Assembly (NCBI GenBank): GCA_017470055.1
Contig: JAFUFD010000087.1
Span: 117,467 to 165,489 of the forward strand
Source: Prevotella sp.
GTDB taxonomy: Bacteria > Bacteroidota > Bacteroidia > Bacteroidales > Bacteroidaceae
DNA length: 48,023 nucleotides
Direction of reading: 5' to 3'
Part shown: positions 1,850 to 18,824 of the stretch, piece by piece
Position numbering within the stretch: the first letter of the stretch is position 1
Layout: the number at the start of each line of letters is the position of its first letter
Notes under the pieces: generated by a model
Told to the model about the DNA's origin: nothing
Seen by the model: only the letters and a program-made list of their open reading frames with translations
Database searches by the model: none
Position numbers and translations under genes: made by a program

Positions 1850-2983
1850 TTATTTCTTAGTCACTACAACCTTATTGTTGCCCTCGTAACTGAGGAAGAG
1901 TTGTACGAAGTAAGTACCATCAGCATCGAGGTCCAAGTCCTTACCACTGTTATAAGTCAGATTGTCAAGAGCCGTAGGATCGTCATTAGCACCACCCCAA
2001 CTCCAAGTCCAGTCGTGGTTTACACGGAACTTCATGGCACCAGCATTCAAGGTGGCTGTTACCTCCCATGCACCAGTCTCCTCGTTGTATTCCATGTCGG
2101 TATCGTTGTCCCAAGAACCATTAACAGTACCAATAATACTGATGACGTCAATCTTCAGCAACTCATAAGTAAGATCTGCCATATTCACATTGACCTTATA
2201 GAAGCCTGGCTCGGTGATCTTAATATTGTCAGCACCTTCTGCCAAAGAACCTTCCTCTTCTCCGACACCCCAGTTAGTGCCAATGTTCCAGTCATCCTTG
2301 TCCTCACGGAACTTGAACTCACTCTTAAGATACATCAGACCAGCATACTCACCAGTGAACAGACCGTTCTCATCTGCGTCACTACGCAATGCATTAGAGG
2401 TTGCCCAACCAGTGTCATCACCAATCTCATAGATAAACTCTGCATACTCTGTCACAGGAGCCATAGGAACAACTGTCAATTTCACAGAGTTAGAGTAAAC
2501 TGCGGGAACACTAAGATCTTCTAACACTGCCTTACAGCGGACATAGATGTCAATGCTGGCAGGAATCTCACTATCGGGATCCCATCCCTTCACTTTGGCA
2601 ATACCATTATTCAGTGCCTTACCTGCCACACCGCCACTAACAGTAGTGAAACTACCAGTGACATCGGCATAAGTTGCAGGGGTAATCTCATTACCCTCAG
2701 CATCCAAAACTGCATCAACCCATGTATCATCTACAGAAACCTGGAAAGAATAAGTTACAGGTACTGTGAAACCATAGTTTGGCTGATTCCATGTGAAATT
2801 CACCGTATTACTTGATGCTAAATCAATTAACTGAGTAGCGTAAGCGGGTGTATTCAACTTAAACTCGGTGGTCATGTTGTCTGTGTCTACGATGGGGTTG
2901 TCATCACGATCACTGTCACATGAGGCGAACAGCAAAGCGGCGACAGCCAAGAACAGACCACTTTTAAAATATTTTGTCTTCAT
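1850..2983 (-). CDS. susE: SusE-like outer-membrane starch-binding lipoprotein
   Basis: The protein has 377 residues, close to B. thetaiotaomicron SusE (about 387). The signal peptide ends FASC with Cys22, and DSDRDDN follows, a strong acidic surface-export signal. Residues 35-172 form an Ig-like SusE N-terminal domain. Two binding modules follow, at about 182-278 and 281-377. The second opens ISIIGTVNGSWD and contains HDWTWSWGG, closely like the last module of the neighbouring SusF-like protein, so the two genes share an origin. There are no catalytic motifs. The likely role is binding starch or maltodextrin at the surface alongside SusD. It sits 33 bases after susD and 27 before the SusF-like gene, with no promoter or terminator between, so it belongs to the susC transcript. 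Confidence 0.87.
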   Translation of the reverse strand: MKTKYFKSGLFLAVAALLFASCDSDRDDNPIVDTDNMTTEFKLNTPAYATQLIDLASSNTVNFTWNQPNYGFTVPVTYSFQVSVDDTWVDAVLDAEGNEITPATYADVTGSFTTVSGGVAGKALNNGIAKVKGWDPDSEIPASIDIYVRCKAVLEDLSVPAVYSNSVKLTVVPMAPVTEYAEFIYEIGDDTGWATSNALRSDADENGLFTGEYAGLMYLKSEFKFREDKDDWNIGTNWGVGEEEGSLAEGADNIKITEPGFYKVNVNMADLTYELLKIDVISIIGTVNGSWDNDTDMEYNEETGAWEVTATLNAGAMKFRVNHDWTWSWGGANDDPTALDNLTYNSGKDLDLDADGTYFVQLFLSYEGNNKVVVTKK

Positions 2984-3016: not shown

Positions 3017-4612
3017 TTAATAACCGGCATTTTGTTCCAAATTTGAATTTGACATAATGTCACTTGACGGTATAGGATAAAGGTTGAAATGAGCATCTAC
3101 AGCATGAGCCGTACCTATATTACTATTCATACCTTTATAAGCCCAAATGTAAGTATCTGAGGTAAGCAAGTTGAAACGCACCAAGTCTGAACGACGATGA
3201 CACTCCCATGCCAACTCACGGGCACGCTCATCAATGATGTCATTAGCAGTTGCAGATGCTAAAGAATTCAGACCTGCACGATTGCGGATCTGGTTGAGAT
3301 ACCACAAACCATCATGACCATTTACATTGACACTAACACCACCAACTACCTGACACTCTGCAAGCATCAAATAAACATCACCGAGACGGAATACAGGGAA
3401 GTCAGTATCTGTGAAGGAATTGGCATCCTCCAGAATTGTACCATCAGCCTTCAGATTGGTGAACTTCAAGAATGAATAACCACCCTGTTCAAACTCACCA
3501 AGGTCAAGAATAGCCTTACCGCCACCTGCCTTCACCTCATAGAACACAGCACGCTGGTCATTATCAGAGAACTTATTGACAAACTCTGGGGTCAGACGGA
3601 AGCCTGCCCATCCTGAGCCACCCAGTCCGAAGTCTGCGGCATAGTCTGCCTGACCACCACATGCGGCATTGATAATATAAGTTGTACCACCATAAGCCTT
3701 AGTGTTCAAGTGATCCTGATAGACACTGAAAATCAATTCATGCCCAACACCCAGCATCTGGTCATTATCCGCACAGAACATCTTATAATAATCACTGGCA
3801 GCCTCAAGGGTGTAACCAAGGTCAATGACTTTCTTGCAATACTCAGCACACTTGTCATACTGAGCAGTACCTGTGTATACTTTTGCATTCAGATAAAGTT
3901 TTGCCAACAGCATATAAGCCAAACCTTTTCCTGCACGGTACTTCTCTGGATTGGCAGGAAGCACCTCTGCAGCACTTTCCAGATCAGTTACCATCCAATC
4001 AAACAAATCTGCGCGAGCAATACGCTCAGGATTTGCACCACCAACCACAGAGGTCTCGTCTACAAAAGGTACATTACCAAAGAGGTCGATGACGTGGTAG
4101 TAACTCAAGCCACGAAGGGCACATGCCTCTGCACGGTATTGCTGCATAGTGGCATCATTTGCATTGCCTGCAGCGTCAATACGACGAATCACCTCATTAC
4201 ACAATGATATCTGATAGAACATACGGGCATAGGCAGCAGTCACAAACACATCGTTTGTACTCCAGCACAATCCATGCAAATCCTTAATGGTCTGGTCATT
4301 CCAGTTCATCACCACCTCATCGGTTGGTAACTCCTGCAAGTTAACCAATGCACGAAGATACTGTCCGAAACCACCATCAATACTCTTAATGTCAGGATCA
4401 CCGCTATCACCGTCAGGTGAACTAACTGACAGAGCAGAGTAACACTTGGCAAGCAATTGATTATAGGTCTCTGTACTCGTCAGCACATTCTCTGGGGTGT
4501 CGAGATTCGGATCAATAGGTGTCACGTCCAAGTCTCCCGTACATGCCGTGAATGACATGGCAGAGGCAATGGCAATCGTGAATATTCCGTTTTTAAACAT
4601 ATTTTTCTTCAT
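3017..4612 (-). CDS. susD: SusD/RagB-family starch-binding lipoprotein
   Basis: The protein has 531 residues, with a lipoprotein signal ending FTAC at Cys24 followed by TGDLDVTPID. The typical SusD layout is visible: an N-terminal helical TPR-like region (for example ALRGLSYYHVIDLFGNVPF), then the C-terminal signature DERARELAWECHRRSDLVRF and a final segment NLYPIPSSDIMSNSNLEQN. SusD proteins form the lid over the SusC transporter and bind the glycan at the surface. Starch as the substrate is inferred from the surrounding GH13, GH97 and GH77 genes and the SusE/F neighbours, not from binding residues. It lies 14 bases after susC and is certainly cotranscribed with it. Confidence 0.93.
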   Translation of the reverse strand: MKKNMFKNGIFTIAIASAMSFTACTGDLDVTPIDPNLDTPENVLTSTETYNQLLAKCYSALSVSSPDGDSGDPDIKSIDGGFGQYLRALVNLQELPTDEVVMNWNDQTIKDLHGLCWSTNDVFVTAAYARMFYQISLCNEVIRRIDAAGNANDATMQQYRAEACALRGLSYYHVIDLFGNVPFVDETSVVGGANPERIARADLFDWMVTDLESAAEVLPANPEKYRAGKGLAYMLLAKLYLNAKVYTGTAQYDKCAEYCKKVIDLGYTLEAASDYYKMFCADNDQMLGVGHELIFSVYQDHLNTKAYGGTTYIINAACGGQADYAADFGLGGSGWAGFRLTPEFVNKFSDNDQRAVFYEVKAGGGKAILDLGEFEQGGYSFLKFTNLKADGTILEDANSFTDTDFPVFRLGDVYLMLAECQVVGGVSVNVNGHDGLWYLNQIRNRAGLNSLASATANDIIDERARELAWECHRRSDLVRFNLLTSDTYIWAYKGMNSNIGTAHAVDAHFNLYPIPSSDIMSNSNLEQNAGY

Positions 4613-4626
4613 AATTCTTCTACTAA

Positions 4627-7611
4627 TTAAAAGTTGAGACTAACACCGAACAAGAACGTACGAGGACGTGGATACATATTATTGTCAATACCACCAGAAA
4701 CCTCAGGATCAAGACCATCATAATCAGTGATGGTGAATACGTTCTGAGCCGTAAAGTGAACGCGAATCCAGTCAGCAATCTCATAGGCAAGAGTAACCTT
4801 GTCGAGTTTGAAGAATGTGGCGTTACGCACATAGTAGTCACTAATGTAACGGGCTGTGCTGAAATTAGAGAATGGAGCAGATGCTACACGGTTGGAGATA
4901 AAGTTATTAGTCCAAAGGTCAGCAATCATCTCACCATCAGATGCTACATTGTTATATACATAGTTGTTGAAATTAGCACGAGCAGATGCAGACAAGGTCC
5001 ACTTCTTGTAATTAACCTCTGTATTGAAGCCTAAAGTAACATCAGGATCGGGTTTGGTATAAACGTAACGGTCATAGTCATTAATGGCTCCATCTGCGTT
5101 ACGGTCTACAAAGACACCGTCGAGAGGTCTTCCATTCTGATCATATACCTGCTGGTATACCCAGAAAGAGTTGATAGGATTGCCCACACTCTGCAATTGC
5201 ACTACATTATCCACACCACCGGAGATACCACCTGTGCGAACACCAATATAAGATGGATCGTCATAAGCGGTCAACTTAGTGATTTCATTCTTGTTATATG
5301 CGAAATTTAATCCAACTTCCCAACGCCAGTCTTTGGTCTGAACAGGAACGGCATTGATGGCAACCTCGAAACCTGTGTTCTCCAAATCACCGACATTCAT
5401 CAACAGCATATCAGTCAAGTTTGTACCTGTGGTAACAGGGATTGTATTCAACAAGTCTGCTGTCTTACGCTTATAGACATCAATACTACCATTAATACGA
5501 TTCTTCAAGAATCCGAAGTCAATACCTAAGTTATAGGTTGTTGTCTCCTCCCACTTCAACTGAGCAGCATATCCCTTTGGTGAGATAGGAACAATAGTCT
5601 GATTACCAAACATATAGTATGAGCCAGCCTGGTTCGTATGATAAGTCGGAATAGAAGGATAGTCACCCTGTCCGATATTCTGCTGACCTGTGATACCCCA
5701 TCCTAAACGAAGTTTCAAGTTAGACAACCAACCTACATTCTTGAGGAAGTTCTCCTCGTTAACACGCCATGCAAGAGCAACGGCAGGGAATACACCCCAC
5801 TTGTTGTTCTGGAAACGAGATGTTCCATCACGACGAATTGTTGCGGTCAACAGGTAACGATCCATGAAAGCGTAGTTCAAACGTCCGAAGAATGATACCA
5901 AGAAACTCTCTGTCTTGAAGAGAGGAGTCGTGGCATACTCCGTGTTATTTCCATCATTAGACTGCTTGTAATCAGTCGTCTTGTTATAGAAATGCTGCCA
6001 AGAATAACCTGCCATTACGTCAAAACGGCTCATGATAGAAGGCAACTCTTTCGCATAGGCAAGATAGAACTCTAATGTCTGGTCACGACGTAACTGGGTA
6101 TATTTCTCATAGAGACCTGCGCCATTCTGCGTCTTATCATGATAAGAGATTTCACTCTGATAGTCACTATAGTTATAACCATTGGAAGTGGAAATATCAA
6201 GACCAAGGTTCAAGTTTGCGCGCAAACCAGGAACATATTTAAACTTATAATCAAACTGGGCATTACCTACGAAACGGCGAACATAGGAAGTCTTATCCTG
6301 CTGATTCAACTGAGCCACTGGGTTCAGAACAGACATGGTGTTAACAGAACCGTTGTTCTCCCAACGAGTGTAATTACCATTATCATCATAGACCGTCTTA
6401 GTAGGAATGTACTTGACTGCGGCACCAATAGCACCCTCATCAGCGAAATTGTTCTGGGTGAATACACCTTTTGCGTTCAAATTAATGGTCAGACGATCAT
6501 CAAGTAATGTTGGAGTCAGATTCAAGCCAACAGTTCCACGATTCATAGATGAGGTCTTCAAGATACCATTGTTATCCAACCATCCAACAGACACACGATA
6601 AGGCATTTTGAAACTCTTGCTACTATTCTGGTAACCACCAGTTACGCTGGCATTAGTCTCATAAGAGAATGCCGTACGATAAATCTCGTCCTGCCAATTC
6701 GTGTTCGGACCAATGATATTACCATCTGCGTCCATCGTTGCTCCAAGGGCAGCCATACCATTCTCGCTGTCGCCATAGTTAGCAACAAAGAAATTATACA
6801 GACCTTTGCTATCCAGCACATCAACTTTCTTAGCGATAGTCTGTACAGTAGCATTCATGTCGACAGTGATTTTAGGCTTGCCAGAAGTACCTTTCTTCGT
6901 GGTAATCACAATCACACCATTAGAAGCACGGCTACCATAAATAGCAGTAGCGGAAGCATCCTTCAAGATAGAGAAACTCTCAATGTCATTGGGGTTGATT
7001 GTTGAAAGCACGTCAGCAGAACCAGAAATACCTGTTGAACTGATGGGCAGTCCGTCAATAACAATCAGAGGGTCGTTACTTGCAGACAGAGAAGAGCCTC
7101 CACGGATACGAATAGTAGAACCAGCACCAGGAGCGCCACCATTAGTCGTAATTGACACACCAGCAGACTTGCCTTGCAAGAGATCAGCAGGAGAGGTCGC
7201 AAAACCCTTACCCAACTGGTCTGCCTCAATAGACTGTACAGATCCTGTTGCGTCACTCTTACGTACGGTACCATAACCAATGACCACCACATTATCCAAG
7301 ATGTTAGCATCTTCTTCAAGAGTGATGTCGAGATTACGTGCTGCCTTCACGGTCTGGGTCTGATAGCCCACATACGACACGCTAATGTCAGCACCTTGAT
7401 TAGCCTTCAAGACGAAGTTTCCGTCGAAGTCGGATACCGTAGCGGTCTGAGTACCTACCACACGTACCGTCGCACCGATAATCGGTTCGCCCTGAGCATC
7501 TTTAACATGACCTTTGACATCAATCTGTGCAAAGGCTCCTGCCGAAAAGAAGAGTCCTAACAGGAGGACAAACATCCTTAACGGAGTTTTAATGTTTACC
7601 TGCTTCATCAT
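4627..7611 (-). CDS. susC: SusC/RagA-family TonB-dependent starch-oligosaccharide transporter
   Basis: The outer-membrane protein has 994 residues. The signal peptide is residues 1-29 (cleavage after AGAFAQ or one residue earlier). A carboxypeptidase-D-regulatory-like domain covers about 31-100. A TonB-box-like VVVIGYG lies near 108-114, and the plug carries the SusC signature DASATAIYGSRASNGVIVIT from residue 218. The rest (about 250-994) is the beta-barrel, ending in the aromatic LFGVSLNF expected of an outer-membrane C terminus. It imports maltooligosaccharides with TonB energy, with SusD as lid. Two in-frame ATGs open the gene (7611 and 7608). It is first in the susCDEF operon, with its -7 box at 7680-7687 and a LacI-type operator at 7742-7757. 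The leader is about 65 nt. Confidence 0.96.
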   Translation of the reverse strand: MMKQVNIKTPLRMFVLLLGLFFSAGAFAQIDVKGHVKDAQGEPIIGATVRVVGTQTATVSDFDGNFVLKANQGADISVSYVGYQTQTVKAARNLDITLEEDANILDNVVVIGYGTVRKSDATGSVQSIEADQLGKGFATSPADLLQGKSAGVSITTNGGAPGAGSTIRIRGGSSLSASNDPLIVIDGLPISSTGISGSADVLSTINPNDIESFSILKDASATAIYGSRASNGVIVITTKKGTSGKPKITVDMNATVQTIAKKVDVLDSKGLYNFFVANYGDSENGMAALGATMDADGNIIGPNTNWQDEIYRTAFSYETNASVTGGYQNSSKSFKMPYRVSVGWLDNNGILKTSSMNRGTVGLNLTPTLLDDRLTINLNAKGVFTQNNFADEGAIGAAVKYIPTKTVYDDNGNYTRWENNGSVNTMSVLNPVAQLNQQDKTSYVRRFVGNAQFDYKFKYVPGLRANLNLGLDISTSNGYNYSDYQSEISYHDKTQNGAGLYEKYTQLRRDQTLEFYLAYAKELPSIMSRFDVMAGYSWQHFYNKTTDYKQSNDGNNTEYATTPLFKTESFLVSFFGRLNYAFMDRYLLTATIRRDGTSRFQNNKWGVFPAVALAWRVNEENFLKNVGWLSNLKLRLGWGITGQQNIGQGDYPSIPTYHTNQAGSYYMFGNQTIVPISPKGYAAQLKWEETTTYNLGIDFGFLKNRINGSIDVYKRKTADLLNTIPVTTGTNLTDMLLMNVGDLENTGFEVAINAVPVQTKDWRWEVGLNFAYNKNEITKLTAYDDPSYIGVRTGGISGGVDNVVQLQSVGNPINSFWVYQQVYDQNGRPLDGVFVDRNADGAINDYDRYVYTKPDPDVTLGFNTEVNYKKWTLSASARANFNNYVYNNVASDGEMIADLWTNNFISNRVASAPFSNFSTARYISDYYVRNATFFKLDKVTLAYEIADWIRVHFTAQNVFTITDYDGLDPEVSGGIDNNMYPRPRTFLFGVSLNF

Positions 7612-7679: not shown

Positions 7680-7687
7680 CAAAGATA
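7680..7687 (-). promoter_or_regulatory. susC promoter, -7 box
   Basis: TATCTTTG on the minus strand matches the Bacteroidota -7 consensus TAnnTTTG. No TTG is found 19-21 bp upstream, so the promoter may need an activator. The palindrome at 7742-7757 begins 54 bp upstream. Confidence 0.8.
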
Positions 7688-7741
7688 AGGTTTGTTCGCA
7701 TTCGTTCATACTTTTTTTGAGTTAAAACCGTATTTCTATAA

Positions 7742-7757
7742 ATGCAAACGTTTGCAT
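7742..7757. promoter_or_regulatory. LacI-family operator between susC and the regulator gene
   Basis: ATGCAAACGTTTGCAT is a perfect 16-bp palindrome with the central CG typical of LacI-family operators. It sits midway between the divergent -7 boxes, 54 bp from that of susC and 55 bp from that of the regulator gene. The same 16 bases recur at 10191-10206. The regulator encoded next door is the natural binder; that is inference. Confidence 0.85.
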
Positions 7758-7812
7758 GCTGTGACGCTTATAAATAAATAAGGTAAATGTGACGTGGAAT
7801 GAACTTTTTCTA

Positions 7813-7820
7813 TACCTTTG
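7813..7820 (+). promoter_or_regulatory. Promoter of the LacI-family regulator and MFS operon, -7 box
   Basis: TACCTTTG matches TAnnTTTG and ends 24 bases before the ATG at 7845. It overlaps a TTG that could be misread as a start codon at 7818. No -33 TTG is seen; the palindrome ends 55 bp upstream. Confidence 0.8.
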
Positions 7821-7844
7821 CAAAAGAATACTAAAAACCGAAAG

Positions 7845-8870
7845 ATGGAAGATCATGCTCCCTTGACGATGAAGGATATAGCCCGTGAGTTTGGCATCAG
7901 TGTTGCCACAGTCTCCCGTGCCCTGAAAGACTCGCCCCGTATCTCTGCGGAGCGTCGTGCCGCTATCCAACAGTATGCCAGAGAGCATAATTTCACCCCT
8001 AACGTCATCGCAGAGTCTTTGCGCCATTCCAAAGTGCAGCCCATGAAGGTGATTGGGGTCATCATTCCTAACTTTGTCCATTACTACTTCGCCTCTGTGC
8101 TGAGTGGCATTGAGGAGGAGGCATCTGCCCGAGGCTACCGTCTGATGGTTGCCACCAGTCAGGAGAGTTATGAGCGGGAGGTGCGCATCTGCCAGTCGTT
8201 CTATGAGAACAAAGTGTGCGGTATCATCGTCTCACAGGCAAAGGACACACAGAAATACGACCACTTCCAGCGATTGATGGATGCTGGTGTTCCGCTGGTA
8301 TTCTATGACCGCATCTGTACGGGAGTGAATGCCAGTCGTGTGGTGGTGGACGACTATATGGGAGCCTTCAATGCCGTGACTCATCTTATCGAGACAGGTT
8401 GCACCCGCATCGCTTTCTATGGCTCCGCTATGACGTTGGAAATCTCCAAGAACAGGTACAATGGCTATAAAGATGCCCTATTGAAGCACGGTCTCCAACC
8501 AGACCCAGAACTGATGCGTTTCTGTGACAACCGTACGGACGCAGAGGCGATTACCCCAGAGATACTCCAAAGTCCTACCCCCCCCAATGGCTTCTTTGCC
8601 GTCAATGATGATACGGCGATAGGTATTCTCTATACCGCAAAGCGCATGGGCTTCAGGGTGCCTGACGACATCTCCATCTGCGGATTCACCAACGGCTACC
8701 GTGCCATTGCTTGCGACCCCATGCTGACAACGGTGGAGCAACGGGGAAAACTAGTGGGCGAGGAGGCTGCGAACATCCTTATCGGACATGTGGAGCGAAC
8801 CATCCCACTCGACAAGGCGGAACGCAGAATCGTAAGAACCAGACTGGTCATAAGAGGAACAACAAGATAA
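7845..8870 (+). CDS. LacI-family transcriptional regulator of the starch/maltose locus
   Basis: The protein has 341 residues. The N-terminal helix-turn-helix is LTMKDIAREFGISVATVSRA (residues 7-26), followed by the hinge helix TPNVIAESLR (51-60) with the Ala and Leu spacing of LacI proteins. A periplasmic-binding-protein-like effector domain starts near 69 (VIGVIIPNF) and includes the late motif DDISICGF. I chose the ATG at 7845 because the upstream in-frame TTG at 7818 lies inside the -7 box. The gene is divergent from susC and is followed after 5 bases by a sugar permease, probably in one transcript. The effector is probably maltose or a maltooligosaccharide, by context only. The equal upstream placement of its likely operator at three promoters suggests activation rather than repression. 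It resembles MalR-type LacI regulators rather than the membrane-bound SusR of B. thetaiotaomicron. Confidence 0.93.
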   Translation: MEDHAPLTMKDIAREFGISVATVSRALKDSPRISAERRAAIQQYAREHNFTPNVIAESLRHSKVQPMKVIGVIIPNFVHYYFASVLSGIEEEASARGYRLMVATSQESYEREVRICQSFYENKVCGIIVSQAKDTQKYDHFQRLMDAGVPLVFYDRICTGVNASRVVVDDYMGAFNAVTHLIETGCTRIAFYGSAMTLEISKNRYNGYKDALLKHGLQPDPELMRFCDNRTDAEAITPEILQSPTPPNGFFAVNDDTAIGILYTAKRMGFRVPDDISICGFTNGYRAIACDPMLTTVEQRGKLVGEEAANILIGHVERTIPLDKAERRIVRTRLVIRGTTR

Positions 8871-8875
8871 GAAAT

Positions 8876-10189
8876 ATGAAACAGAAACCGAATTTACCCT
8901 TTTGGGGACTATGGAACCTTAGTTTTGGATTCTTTGGCGTACAGATAGCCTATGCACTCCAAAGTGCCAACATCTCCCGTATCTTCGCCACTTTAGGCGC
9001 AGACCCCCACAACCTCAGTTATTTCTGGATACTCCCTCCATTGATGGGTATCCTCGTACAACCTATCGTAGGAACGCTAAGCGATAAGACATGGACCCGT
9101 TTCGGTCGCCGTATACCTTATTTATTTATAGGAGCAGCCGTCGCTGTACTGGTTATGTGTCTACTGCCTAACGCTGGCTCGTTAGGACTTGCTGTCAGTG
9201 CTGCGATGGTATTCGGACTGATTGCCCTGATGTTCCTTGACACCAGCATCAATATGGCGATGCAACCTTTTAAGATGCTGGTGGGCGATATGGTGAACGA
9301 GGAGCAGAAAGCAAAGGCATACAGCATCCAGTCGTTCCTGTGCAACGCTGGCTCTGTGGTCGGTTTCCTCTTCCCTTTCATCTTCACATGGATTGGCATT
9401 AGCAATGTGGCACAAAAAGGAGTTGTACCAGACAGTGTCATCTGGTCGTTCTATGTCGGCGCAGCCATTCTGATCCTCTGCGTTCTCTATACCACACTGA
9501 AGGTCAAGGAGTGGAATCCGCAGGAGTATGCGGAGTATAATGGGACTAATGGGTCTGATGGACAGGATGAGAAGGAATCGGCTAACTGGATTACCCTGCT
9601 GCGTAACGCTCCTTCCACTTTCTGGAAAGTGGGACTGGTGCAGTTCTTCTGCTGGGCTGCGTTCCTATATATGTGGAACTACACTACTGGCGCTATTGCC
9701 GAGACGGTATGGAACACCACCGACCCTGCCAGCGAGGACTTCCAGACAGCAGGCAACTGGGTGGGTGTGCTTTTCGCCGTACAGGCAATCGGCTCTGTCG
9801 TTTGGGCTACCGTGCTTCCACAGTTCAAGAACACAAAGATTGCCTATGCCGTCAGCCTTGTCATCGGTGGCATCGGCTTTGTCCTCATTCCCTTTATCCA
9901 CGACGCATACTTGCAGTTCATTCCCTTTATCCTGATCGGTTGCGCATGGGCAGCGATGCTTGCCATGCCTTTCACCTTTGTGACGAATGCCCTGCAAGGC
10001 TACGGACACATGGGGGCTTACCTCGGACTGTTTAACGGTACTATCTGTATACCGCAGATTATCGCTGCCCTATGTGGAGGTCTCGTCCTTACACTGGTAG
10101 GCAGCCACCAGTCTACGATGATGATTGTCGCAGGTGTCCTGCTCGTCATTGGTGCTGCCTGCGTTACCGTCATCCGTGGGAAGCGGTAG
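8876..10189 (+). CDS. MFS/GPH-type sugar permease, probably maltose or maltodextrin
   Basis: The integral inner-membrane protein has 437 residues and about 12 hydrophobic segments. The loop SDKTWTRFGRRIPYLF (residues 69-84) is the signature of the GPH/SLC45-like branch of the major facilitator superfamily. The start is the ATG at 8876, five bases after the regulator stop; an in-frame upstream ATG at 8711 would overlap the regulator and adds only non-family residues. The likely role is proton- or sodium-coupled import of maltose or short maltooligosaccharides made in the periplasm by the GH97, pullulanase and SusA-like enzymes, feeding cytoplasmic MalQ. The substrate is inferred from neighbours. 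The gene is followed by an operator copy (10191-10206) and a terminator (10228-10259). Confidence 0.9.
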   Translation: MKQKPNLPFWGLWNLSFGFFGVQIAYALQSANISRIFATLGADPHNLSYFWILPPLMGILVQPIVGTLSDKTWTRFGRRIPYLFIGAAVAVLVMCLLPNAGSLGLAVSAAMVFGLIALMFLDTSINMAMQPFKMLVGDMVNEEQKAKAYSIQSFLCNAGSVVGFLFPFIFTWIGISNVAQKGVVPDSVIWSFYVGAAILILCVLYTTLKVKEWNPQEYAEYNGTNGSDGQDEKESANWITLLRNAPSTFWKVGLVQFFCWAAFLYMWNYTTGAIAETVWNTTDPASEDFQTAGNWVGVLFAVQAIGSVVWATVLPQFKNTKIAYAVSLVIGGIGFVLIPFIHDAYLQFIPFILIGCAWAAMLAMPFTFVTNALQGYGHMGAYLGLFNGTICIPQIIAALCGGLVLTLVGSHQSTMMIVAGVLLVIGAACVTVIRGKR

Positions 10190-10190
10190 A

Positions 10191-10206
10191 ATGCAAACGT
10201 TTGCAT
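10191..10206. promoter_or_regulatory. Second LacI-family operator, upstream of malQ
   Basis: This is the same perfect palindrome ATGCAAACGTTTGCAT as at 7742-7757. It begins just after the permease stop codon and ends 53 bp before the malQ -7 box, nearly the same spacing as at susC (54) and the regulator gene (55). Confidence 0.85.
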
Positions 10207-10227
10207 TATTTAACTTGTAAAACATGT

Positions 10228-10259
10228 CCCATAGGGTAGTCCCTTATGGGATTTTTTTG
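10228..10259 (+). terminator. Intrinsic terminator after the permease gene
   Basis: CCCATA-GGG pairs with CCC-T-TATGGG (10228-10236 with 10241-10250, one bulged T) over a TAGT loop, and is followed by ATTTTTTT. It ends exactly where the malQ -7 box begins. Confidence 0.8.
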
Positions 10260-10267
10260 TACTTTTG
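10260..10267 (+). promoter_or_regulatory. malQ operon promoter, -7 box
   Basis: TACTTTTG fits TAnnTTTG. The usual -33 region is taken up by the terminator hairpin and has no TTG, so promoter strength probably depends on the regulator bound at 10191-10206. The ATG follows 26 bases later. Confidence 0.7.
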
Positions 10268-10293: not shown

Positions 10294-16884
<6,591 letters not shown>

Positions 16885-16895
16885 ACAAGATAGAT

Positions 16896-18824
16896 ATGAT
16901 TATGAGACGAACAATAATTCTATGTTTTCTTTCGTTGCAAATAATAGTGATGAACGCCGCAGTGAAAATAGACAGGATAGACCCCACCGACTGGTTTGTG
17001 GGCATGAAGAACCCTCAGGTACAACTGATGGTCTATGGCAAGAATATCACCGCTGTCAAGGAGGTGACCACCGACTATCCAGGTGTCCGCATCGATAGTG
17101 TGGTACGCCTCGACTCTCCTAACTACCTGTTAGTGTATCTCAACCTGCAAGGAGCACAACCAGGAACCATGACCCTGAGATTCGACAAGATGAAGGTGAC
17201 CTACCAACTCAAGGTAAGAGAGAAGGCAGGTAAGGAGCGGATAGGTTTCACCAATGCCGATGTGCTCTATATGCTCATGCCCGACCGTTTCGCACAAGGT
17301 GCAGGGCATAACCCTCAGGTAAAGGGCATGCGCCCCTACAAAGAGGATCGCACTAAGCCGAGTCTACGGCATGGGGGTGACTTGAATGGCATTCGTGAGC
17401 ACTTGGACTATTTCAGTGAACTGGGCGTGACGGCCTTATGGCTGACACCCGTACTGGAGAACGACTCCCCTGACACAGAGAACGGTTTCTCCACCTATCA
17501 TGGCTATGCTACCACCGACTATTATAAGGTGGACCCGCGTTTTGGTACGAACGAGGACTATCGACGCTTATGCGACGAGGCTCATGCCAAGGGGCTGAAA
17601 GTGGTGATGGATATGATCTTCAACCACTCTGGTTTTGAGCACCCATGGACTAAGGACATGCCCTCGAAAGACTGGCTGAACACGCCTGAGTGGCTAAACG
17701 AGCAACAGAGCGGACGTGATCCGATGACAGGATTCACTGCTAACAGCGATGGGACGGAGCCACAGAAGAGCCAATATCTGCAGACCAGTTACAAACTGAC
17801 TCCCGTAAAGGATCCCTACGCCTCCAAGATAGACTTAAAGGAGACGACAGAGGGATGGTTCGTACCCTCGATGCCTGATCTGAATCAGCACAACCCCCAT
17901 TTGATGCGTTATCTCATCCAGAACAGTATCTGGTGGATAGAGACCGTGGGTATCGACGGCATCCGTATGGATACCTATCCCTATGCTTACGCTGATGCGA
18001 TGGCGCAGTGGATGAAAGAATTGGACGAGGAATATCCTAATTTCAATACGGTAGGTGAGACATGGGTCACAGAGCCTGCCTATACCGCCGCTTGGCAGAA
18101 AGACAGTAAACTGTCGAAAGAGAACAGTTACCTAAAGACGGTCATGGACTTCTCTTTCTTCGACAAACTGAGCCAGGCGAAAAACGAGGAGACGGATGCC
18201 TGGTGGGAGGGGCTCAACCGCCTGTATGGCTCTTTCGTCTACGACTACCTATATCCTAACCCCTCGTCTGTCATGGCCTTCATCGACAACCATGACACAG
18301 ATCGCTTCCTGGGCAACGGACGTGACACACTCGCCCTCAAACAGGCACTCACCCTGTTGCTGACTGTAAAGCGCATTCCGCAAATATATTATGGTACGGA
18401 GATTCTAATGAACGGTACCAAGGAGGTGACCGACGGTAATGTGCGCAAGGATTTCCCTGGTGGATTCCCTGGCGATCAGCATAACGCCTTTACCCAGGAG
18501 GGACGCACCAAGGCAGAGCAGGACATGTTCCGATGGACGAGCCGTCTGCTACATTGGCGACAGGGTAACAATGTGATCATCAAAGGCAGTCAGACGCAGT
18601 TCATTCCCTATCAAGGCATCTACGTCATCGCCCGCCAGTATCAGGGAAAGACTGCACTCACCATCCTCAACGGTACGAGCAAGGCTGCCACCATGGATGT
18701 GAAGCGTTACACTGAGGTCATTGGCGACACCCAACGAGCCAAGGACGTGCTGACAGGACGCTATTATGACCTGTCGAAAGACCTGCAGTTACGCCCCCGC
18801 CAATCGCTGATTTTAGAATTTTAA
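16896..18824 (+). CDS. susA: SusA-like neopullulanase / cyclomaltodextrinase (GH13), periplasmic
   Basis: The protein has 642 residues, against about 617 for B. thetaiotaomicron SusA. A Sec signal (about 1-22, ending VMNAA) has no lipobox, so it should be periplasmic. An N-terminal beta domain typical of cyclomaltodextrinase-type enzymes (PTDWFVGMKNPQVQLMVYG) covers about 24-110. The catalytic barrel has Asp359 (GIRMDTYPY), Glu388 (VGETWV) and Asp467 (FIDNHDTDRF). It hydrolyses alpha-1,4 links in imported maltooligosaccharides, pullulan or cyclodextrins. Two in-frame ATGs (16896 and 16902) are possible. It is the last gene of the malQ operon; no strong terminator follows, and the next gene has its own -7 box 55 bases downstream. 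Confidence 0.93.
   Translation: MIMRRTIILCFLSLQIIVMNAAVKIDRIDPTDWFVGMKNPQVQLMVYGKNITAVKEVTTDYPGVRIDSVVRLDSPNYLLVYLNLQGAQPGTMTLRFDKMKVTYQLKVREKAGKERIGFTNADVLYMLMPDRFAQGAGHNPQVKGMRPYKEDRTKPSLRHGGDLNGIREHLDYFSELGVTALWLTPVLENDSPDTENGFSTYHGYATTDYYKVDPRFGTNEDYRRLCDEAHAKGLKVVMDMIFNHSGFEHPWTKDMPSKDWLNTPEWLNEQQSGRDPMTGFTANSDGTEPQKSQYLQTSYKLTPVKDPYASKIDLKETTEGWFVPSMPDLNQHNPHLMRYLIQNSIWWIETVGIDGIRMDTYPYAYADAMAQWMKELDEEYPNFNTVGETWVTEPAYTAAWQKDSKLSKENSYLKTVMDFSFFDKLSQAKNEETDAWWEGLNRLYGSFVYDYLYPNPSSVMAFIDNHDTDRFLGNGRDTLALKQALTLLLTVKRIPQIYYGTEILMNGTKEVTDGNVRKDFPGGFPGDQHNAFTQEGRTKAEQDMFRWTSRLLHWRQGNNVIIKGSQTQFIPYQGIYVIARQYQGKTALTILNGTSKAATMDVKRYTEVIGDTQRAKDVLTGRYYDLSKDLQLRPRQSLILEF

Follow-up and report, generated by a model that had tools for sequence, protein, structure and literature searches.

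A LacI-family protein as a probable activator of starch genes from a fixed upstream site in Prevotella

LacI-family proteins are best known for switching genes off. The window analysed here, a stretch of 48,023 nucleotides from the genome of a Prevotella sp. (G000:C7:117467-165489, in a genome of 125 contigs), carries a starch locus with a gene for such a protein (7845..8870, + strand), and we propose, with a probability of roughly 0.8, that this protein would act as an activator of starch use from a site at a fixed distance upstream of its promoters. Activation had been suggested by the initial annotation of the window, and it is supported by the conserved spacing between operator and promoter, by helical steps of that spacing among distant homologues, by the loss of the −33 TTG and by the fit of an A/T triplet; activation itself is what we infer from these features.

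Operators and promoters in the window

The palindrome ATGCAAACGTTTGCAT is present as two exact copies, as first annotated. Operator 1 (7742..7757) is common to the divergent promoters of susC and of the regulator gene, and operator 2 (10191..10206) lies 5′ of malQ, directly past the stop codon of the gene for a transporter of the major facilitator superfamily (MFS); no third copy, with up to three mismatches, was found in the window. At the same tolerance, shuffled windows yielded a mean of 0.30 matches per shuffle, with two or more in 1 of 100 shuffles, and the degenerate core GCAANCGNTTGC gave two sites in none of 300 dinucleotide shuffles of the window and a promoter-spaced site in none. 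Taking TAnnTTTG as the pattern of the −7 box, the boxes are TATCTTTG for susC (7680..7687, − strand), TACCTTTG for the regulator-MFS operon (7813..7820, + strand) and TACTTTTG for the malQ operon (10260..10267, + strand). The gaps were recomputed as 54 and 55 bp from operator 1 to the first two boxes and 53 bp from operator 2 to the third, in agreement with the values given earlier, and inspection by eye bore out that none of the three promoters has a TTG at the usual −33 place. The site had also been placed near −74; if the box spans −12 to −5, as in the passages of PMC9723704 on Flavobacterium psychrophilum, its predicted centres fall at about −74.5, −75.5 and −73.5, respectively.

A fourth site of the same genome lies about 3.7 kb outside the window (G000:C7:113710-113785), before an alpha-amylase gene, with a gap of 56 from the 12-base core, equal to 54 from the 16-base edge. 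A further palindrome, GTGCAAACGTTTGCGC, was noticed on a 9.1-kb contig (G000:C48:5236-5281, L307); it has a box 24 bp from its 16-base edge and is not followed by any clear gene.

Conservation of the spacing

The comparison comprised 115 loci, namely the window, 34 orthologous loci from the 201 genomes of its family and 80 named loci. The regulator is present in 35 of the 201 family genomes (E up to 1e-80). The 80 named relatives, which are those listed among at least 561, bear record titles that mostly indicate uncultured Prevotella or Prevotellaceae, in many cases of ruminant origin; their regulators range from 97 to 76% identity, and the loci may share species with the 34 orthologous loci. 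With a site matrix built from those same 115 loci, the distance from palindrome to box was found to be kept, as had been predicted: it is 52-56 bp at 111 of the 115 regulator promoters and at 106 of the 109 divergent susC promoters, and shifting the gap window by −50 to +60 bp in the same scan left sites in only 0-2 of the 115 loci. A single palindrome is common to susC and lacI in 99 loci; in four others, susC and lacI are each served by an operator of their own, with its own distance.

The same value emerged when no distance was preset: 249 of the 264 boxes nearest to exact core sites (within about 100 bp, on each strand) were 52-55 bp away. Measured from the 12-base core, 185 of the 191 distances of up to 160 bp in the 80 named loci lie at 54-57, as do 67 of the 96 distances in the 34 family loci; 29 of the latter fall outside this range, 15 of them, unexplained, at 96-122.

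For spacer identity, promoter anatomy and target genes, boxes located 8-250 bp before ATG-started open reading frames (ORFs) of at least 150 codons were collected, and promoters with a core-to-box gap of 52-58 were taken as spaced; with near-duplicates discarded, this left 147 of 205 spaced promoters and 122 of 142 others. The gap, preselected in this way, has a standard deviation of 0.63 bp, compared with 35.3 bp for the distance from box to ATG, which varies from 14 to 245 bp in the same kind of promoter. Across 59 promoters, the median identity of the spacers was 0.32, against 0.30 for shuffled ones, and 33 of 1711 pairs exceeded 0.6. Since the spacers are unrelated and the distance is kept, it is apparently the distance itself that is under selection. 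The unrelated spacers, the matches outside the family (see below) and the scatter of the 26 matches in the 9-39 bp range of the same 201 genomes led us to reject chance or common descent as its cause.

These data also bear on plain repression, either by DNA looping between operators 1 and 2, which are 2449 bp apart, or by a roadblock, an explanation that we consider extremely improbable. Two identical operators in the window are what looping would require, and LacI is the precedent for it; looping, however, needs no fixed distance to the −7 box, and two loci (L156 and L194) contain a single exact core site in 17 kb in an exact-core scan. As for a roadblock, the sites stand upstream of the promoters, outside the transcribed path. 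An operator placed over the promoter or the start, as expected of a classical LacI-type repressor, is, on these predicted positions, not what is found in the window's family; in some other families, the site does overlap the promoter of the regulator gene.

Co-occurrence with the regulator and predicted regulon

Spaced sites were detected in 33 of the 35 family genomes with the regulator and in 4 of the 166 without it. Among the 131 matches in the family, 92 of 105 in regulator genomes lie at 54-57 from the core, versus 6 of 26 in the others. Phylum-wide outside the family there are 43 matches in 36 genomes, two of them at 54-57 from the core (5.5 expected if uniform), with a weak excess at 43-46 (11 of 43, P=0.02).

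The 205 spaced promoters stand before 99 susC, 83 lacI, 19 malQ, one GH97 (GH, glycoside hydrolase family) and three other ORFs. When remote spaced sites were considered, at least 11 kb from the regulator or on another contig, a gene was found behind five of the nine examined: a SusG-like alpha-amylase (L281), a GH77 enzyme (L282), two other amylases (L284, and L073 from the genome of the window) and a TonB receptor (L287). The locus of Segatella baroniae B14 (L185) has a shared site with boxes at 53 bp to either side and, on the regulator side, one more at 43; another site of that record (L185:495-506), at a distance of 7.4 kb, also has a box 53 bp from it.

The co-occurrence is pertinent to the notion that the palindrome is bound by some protein other than the neighbouring LacI protein. 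A LacI paralogue encoded in the same genome has a similar site, which would make it a conceivable binder; nevertheless, the paralogue's sites differ in sequence (ACGTAAACGTTTGCG) and stand at other distances, the spaced sites follow the presence of the regulator in the proportions just given, and a CG-centred palindrome is typical of the LacI family, whose sites are even palindromes according to passages of PMC4052901. A different binder is therefore regarded as improbable.

Promoter anatomy

A TTG at −23/−22 from the box is found in 5 of the 147 non-redundant spaced promoters and in 25 of the 122 other TAnnTTTG promoters of the same loci (P=9e-6). With the range widened to −24 to −21, the figures are 8 and 28 (P=5e-5), and neighbouring windows give P values of 0.1 or more. 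The spaced promoters have A or T at offsets 16, 17 and 18 from the core edge in 97, 100 and 97% of cases, that is, at about −50 from the predicted start; the same positions are also rich in A/T in other promoters, where the preference is less strict (at most 0.84). Such a triplet would suit binding of the C-terminal domain of the RNA polymerase alpha subunit (alpha-CTD) beside an activator.

In the register of the 147 promoters, the candidate alpha-CTD contacts in the window are the A/T triplets at 7725..7727 (− strand), between operator 1 and the susC promoter, and at 7772..7774 (+ strand), between operator 1 and the regulator promoter. Between operator 2 and the malQ promoter, an A tract (10219..10222, + strand), which might have the same role, lies near the triplet register, whose third base is here a C. 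The 53-bp spacer of malQ also contains a terminator-like hairpin followed by a T run (10226..10256, + strand; the fold of 10207-10262 has −16.3 kcal/mol and a z-score of −2.6).

Distant homologues and helical steps

In the other families of the order, weaker relatives of the regulator (E up to 1e-70) were retrieved from 73 of 247 genomes, two of the 73 being of the window's family. A site within one mismatch of GCAAWCGWTTGC accompanies 48 of the 74 distinct distant homologues, and box density is 0.48 per bp at 30-100 bp against 0.02 per bp at 150-400 bp, a 20-fold difference. The 34 gaps to the divergent box form clusters at 41-43, 52-55, 64-66, 76-77 and 85-88, plus one at 34. A Rayleigh scan of 32 gaps, one per locus (in two loci with two gap values, the value nearer 53 was kept), gave a period of 11.1 bp with R=0.839, which none of 20000 uniform draws reached; without the 51-56 group (n=19), R was 0.877, again reached by 0 of 20000. 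An upstream site at a fixed, helix-phased distance is the mark of class I activators, and by this analysis of the sequences it is the arrangement present here, with a caveat outside the family that concerns operator arrays.

Overlapping LacI-type operator arrays with a 12-bp pitch were observed outside the window's family before divergent, mostly susC, genes (L325, L332, L333, L336, L356 and L379, among others).

Evidence against activation and the possibility of contact repression

Several observations weigh against activation from a fixed distance. A site (with up to four mismatches) is present at 52-55 in 22 of the 32 distant promoters, and, given the 12-bp pitch of the arrays, the lattice is therefore in part the array's own pitch, so that its standing as fully independent evidence had to be softened. 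Three gaps, 34, 17 and 15, lie off the lattice (the latter two outside the 30-100 range), 26 of the 74 distant homologues lack the site, and a divergent-side box at 30-100 bp is present in only 32 of the 48 site-bearing loci, 28 of these 32 with susC. In the other families, no consistent activating distance is seen for the promoter of the regulator itself (52-56 in two loci), and in four distant loci the own-promoter site lies at 16-19 bp and looks repressive. The promoter features are also looser there, which counts slightly against the proposal: a −33 TTG occurs in 6 of 33 site-promoter pairs (four promoters), and the A/T triplet reaches 0.8-0.9 in the 52-55 group. Within the family, a spaced site is missing from 4 of the 115 regulator promoters, one of which is cut by a contig end, and from 3 of the 109 susC promoters; four spaced sites (L280, L283, L285 and L286) have no gene within 300 bp, and the preselection of promoters by gap is a slight weakness. 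Finally, GalR activates and represses by contact from upstream; the spacing alone, therefore, does not fix the sign of control.

This last point introduces the main rival explanation, contact repression, in which the protein would hold the polymerase at the promoter from the same distance and block its escape, sugar releasing it. Sugar-induced release is the default in the LacI family and was counted in favour of this explanation. At E. coli gal, GalR on the OE operator acts by contact, inhibiting P1 and activating P2 (PMC4693257, passages), and blocked escape as at P1 would need a fixed distance too. GalR is in other respects close to what is proposed here, being a LacI/GalR protein with an upstream operator, a contact modelled on the alpha-CTD and an activated promoter, P2; it differs in that one gal operator has opposite effects on two promoters (same source, passages), while here a single geometry recurs at different promoters, which are of the Bacteroidota −7 type and serve starch genes. 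In addition, a −33 TTG is absent from most promoters of the family, as is expected of activator-dependent ones. Activation is favoured over contact repression because the family promoters are −33-poor and the targets share one geometry, and contact repression is considered unlikely, although less so than the other alternatives.

Proposed mode of action

In the proposed activation, a dimer of the 7845-8870 protein would bind the CG-centred palindrome, whose centre lies about 74 bp upstream of the start, and would contact RNA polymerase in a class I geometry, the most likely target being the alpha-CTD positioned on the A/T triplet. The contact, dependent on the face of the helix, would help the polymerase to fire from promoters with a −7 box and a poor −33 element. 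One operator would drive susC and the regulator-MFS operon at once; since the operator is common to both, the activator would raise its own level and that of the importer of its ligand, a positive feedback. The targets would be susC, the regulator plus importer, malQ and amylases, and the signal is presumably maltodextrin.

A broader picture, which we hold to be evenly balanced between right and wrong, is that of an old, Bacteroidales-wide LacI lineage of true activators of susCD-type starch loci. They would act on −33-poor promoters by helix-phased contact from about −63, −74, −85, −97 or −107, often with several operators in arrays of 12-bp pitch; autoregulation would have shifted between repressive (16-19 bp) and activating (54 bp), the latter forming, with the importer, a self-amplifying switch in the window's family.

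Other LacI-family proteins

A general spacing rule for all LacI proteins is unsupported, as no peak of CG palindromes at 52-55 was seen in 34 loci of other LacI proteins (32 retrieved, plus L071 and L072). At 52-55 these loci have 0 of 6 box distances (7 of 8 pairs) and, in non-coding DNA, 0 of 20 (6 of 7 pairs), compared with 53 of 71 for the orthologues in the same non-coding scan.

The paralogue of the window's genome (G000:C95; L071:9090-10130, − strand) is 36% identical to the regulator and has six genus relatives (L288-L293). In all seven genus loci, the palindrome ACGTAAACGTTTGCG is separated from the paralogue's own −7 box by 16-17 bp and from the divergent box by 43-44 bp; the site overlaps the paralogue's −33 region and looks repressive on this predicted layout. 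No such site was found with 13 more distant homologues of the paralogue. In three distant homologues of the regulator (L322-L324), the site lies 16-17 bp from its own gene and 53-54 bp from susC and, taken together with the layout of the paralogue, this suggests that distance may encode the sign of control.

Next to the paralogue, a candidate new small RNA of about 90 bases was noticed (L071:10224-10311, + strand), a segment of which is also present in L308, L309, L310, L311, L270, L271, L313 and L320. A 35-base segment is unchanged and occurs once each in 9 of the 201 family genomes, and the candidate is followed by a terminator-like hairpin whose stem varies yet pairs (6 of 7 by folding, the others by eye). 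In seven loci it is divergent from the paralogous lacI, with a −7 box 43-44 bp from the paralogue operator; near the segment in L320, neither such an operator nor such a gene is present, and L313 is cut by a contig end. No Rfam match to it was found in the three loci searched, where one weak Rfam match sits elsewhere in its locus.

The regulator protein and known systems

The regulator, of 341 amino acids, exceeds the Pfam cut-offs for PF00356 (52.3 bits; cut-off 27) and PF13377 (108.3 bits; cut-off 26.5), and its structure model has a mean pLDDT (predicted local distance difference test) of 89. With an N-terminal helix-turn-helix and a periplasmic-binding-like sugar domain predicted from these matches, it is a LacI/GalR member, and its presumed operator, ATGCAAACGTTTGCAT, is an even palindrome with a central CG, as is usual for that family. 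L59, invariant in 16 aligned regulators, is presumably the conserved hinge leucine of LacI/GalR proteins. When its profile was compared with solved sequences, CcpA scored best, PurR and LacI chains being matched as well. CcpA of Bacilli, closest by sequence profile only, shares the family and the CG-centred sites, and it activates some genes from upstream cre sites; however, it is a global catabolite regulator with HPr-Ser-P as co-effector, and here a starch regulator with one main geometry is proposed.

In Bacteroides thetaiotaomicron, SusR is described as the activator of the sus genes, a membrane protein that binds maltose and has a periplasmic sensor (PMC3878776, passages). Activation of sus genes would be common to both proteins; the difference lies in the design, because the profile of the regulator aligns to CcpA over 3-317 of 338 and leaves no room for a membrane sensor, SusR being known here by description. 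The contrast with SusR drawn in the initial annotation was already partly in print: LacI, MFS and GH65 genes are reported in SusR-less sus loci of B. fragilis and B. uniformis in passages of PMC11633381. The gene set of L058 (LacI, MFS, then GH65) is that set, and L059 and L061 match it by N-terminal letter likeness. These LacI genes are predicted ones, and the passages contain no operator, spacing or mode of action.

Enterococcus faecium requires MdxR, a LacI-family protein, to express its maltodextrin genes fully (PMC3737153); MdxR comes from another phylum with another promoter type and is likened here by description, the available text having neither "promoter" nor "binding site". In a survey of LacI-family regulons (PMC4052901), available passages describe overlapping sites about 13 bp apart, treat Bacteroides as a single group and give distances to translation starts and between sites, whereas the distance used here is from operator to −7 box. 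A search of the literature revealed neither a description of this spacing nor one of activation by the protein; most subscription papers lay outside the search, and its negative outcome is weak evidence of novelty.

Gene content of the locus

To the left of the shared operator, on the − strand, the divergent sus operon begins with a susC-like TonB-dependent receptor (4627..7611; PF07715, PF00593), followed by a SusD-like starch-binding protein (3017..4612; PF07980), a SusE/SusF-like outer membrane protein (1850..2983; PF14292, PF16411) and a fourth gene, for which Pfam gave no match. To the right, all on the + strand, the regulator is adjoined on its 3′ side by the MFS sugar transporter (8876..10189; PF07690), an arrangement with an MFS match after lacI on the same strand that recurs in 34 of the 34 family loci. 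Then come a malQ-like 4-alpha-glucanotransferase (GH77 with a CBM20 carbohydrate-binding module; 10294..12738; PF02446, PF00686), a SusB-like GH97 enzyme (12725..15010; PF10566), a pullulanase-like enzyme (15007..16884; PF21653, PF00128) and a GH13 cyclomaltodextrinase or neopullulanase (16896..18824; PF00128, PF09087, PF10438).

Implications

Starch is among the main nutrients of bacteria in the gut and rumen, and the activator described for its use in this phylum is SusR. If the proposal is correct, a second design would exist beside SusR, a LacI-family activator at a fixed distance, and LacI-type genes of this kind would have to be annotated as activators, not as repressors. Their regulon could be recognized by a simple rule, namely a site, 53-55 bp and TAnnTTTG. 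The second design would also offer a testable model of activator function in Bacteroidota, whose sigma factor and −7 promoters are unusual.

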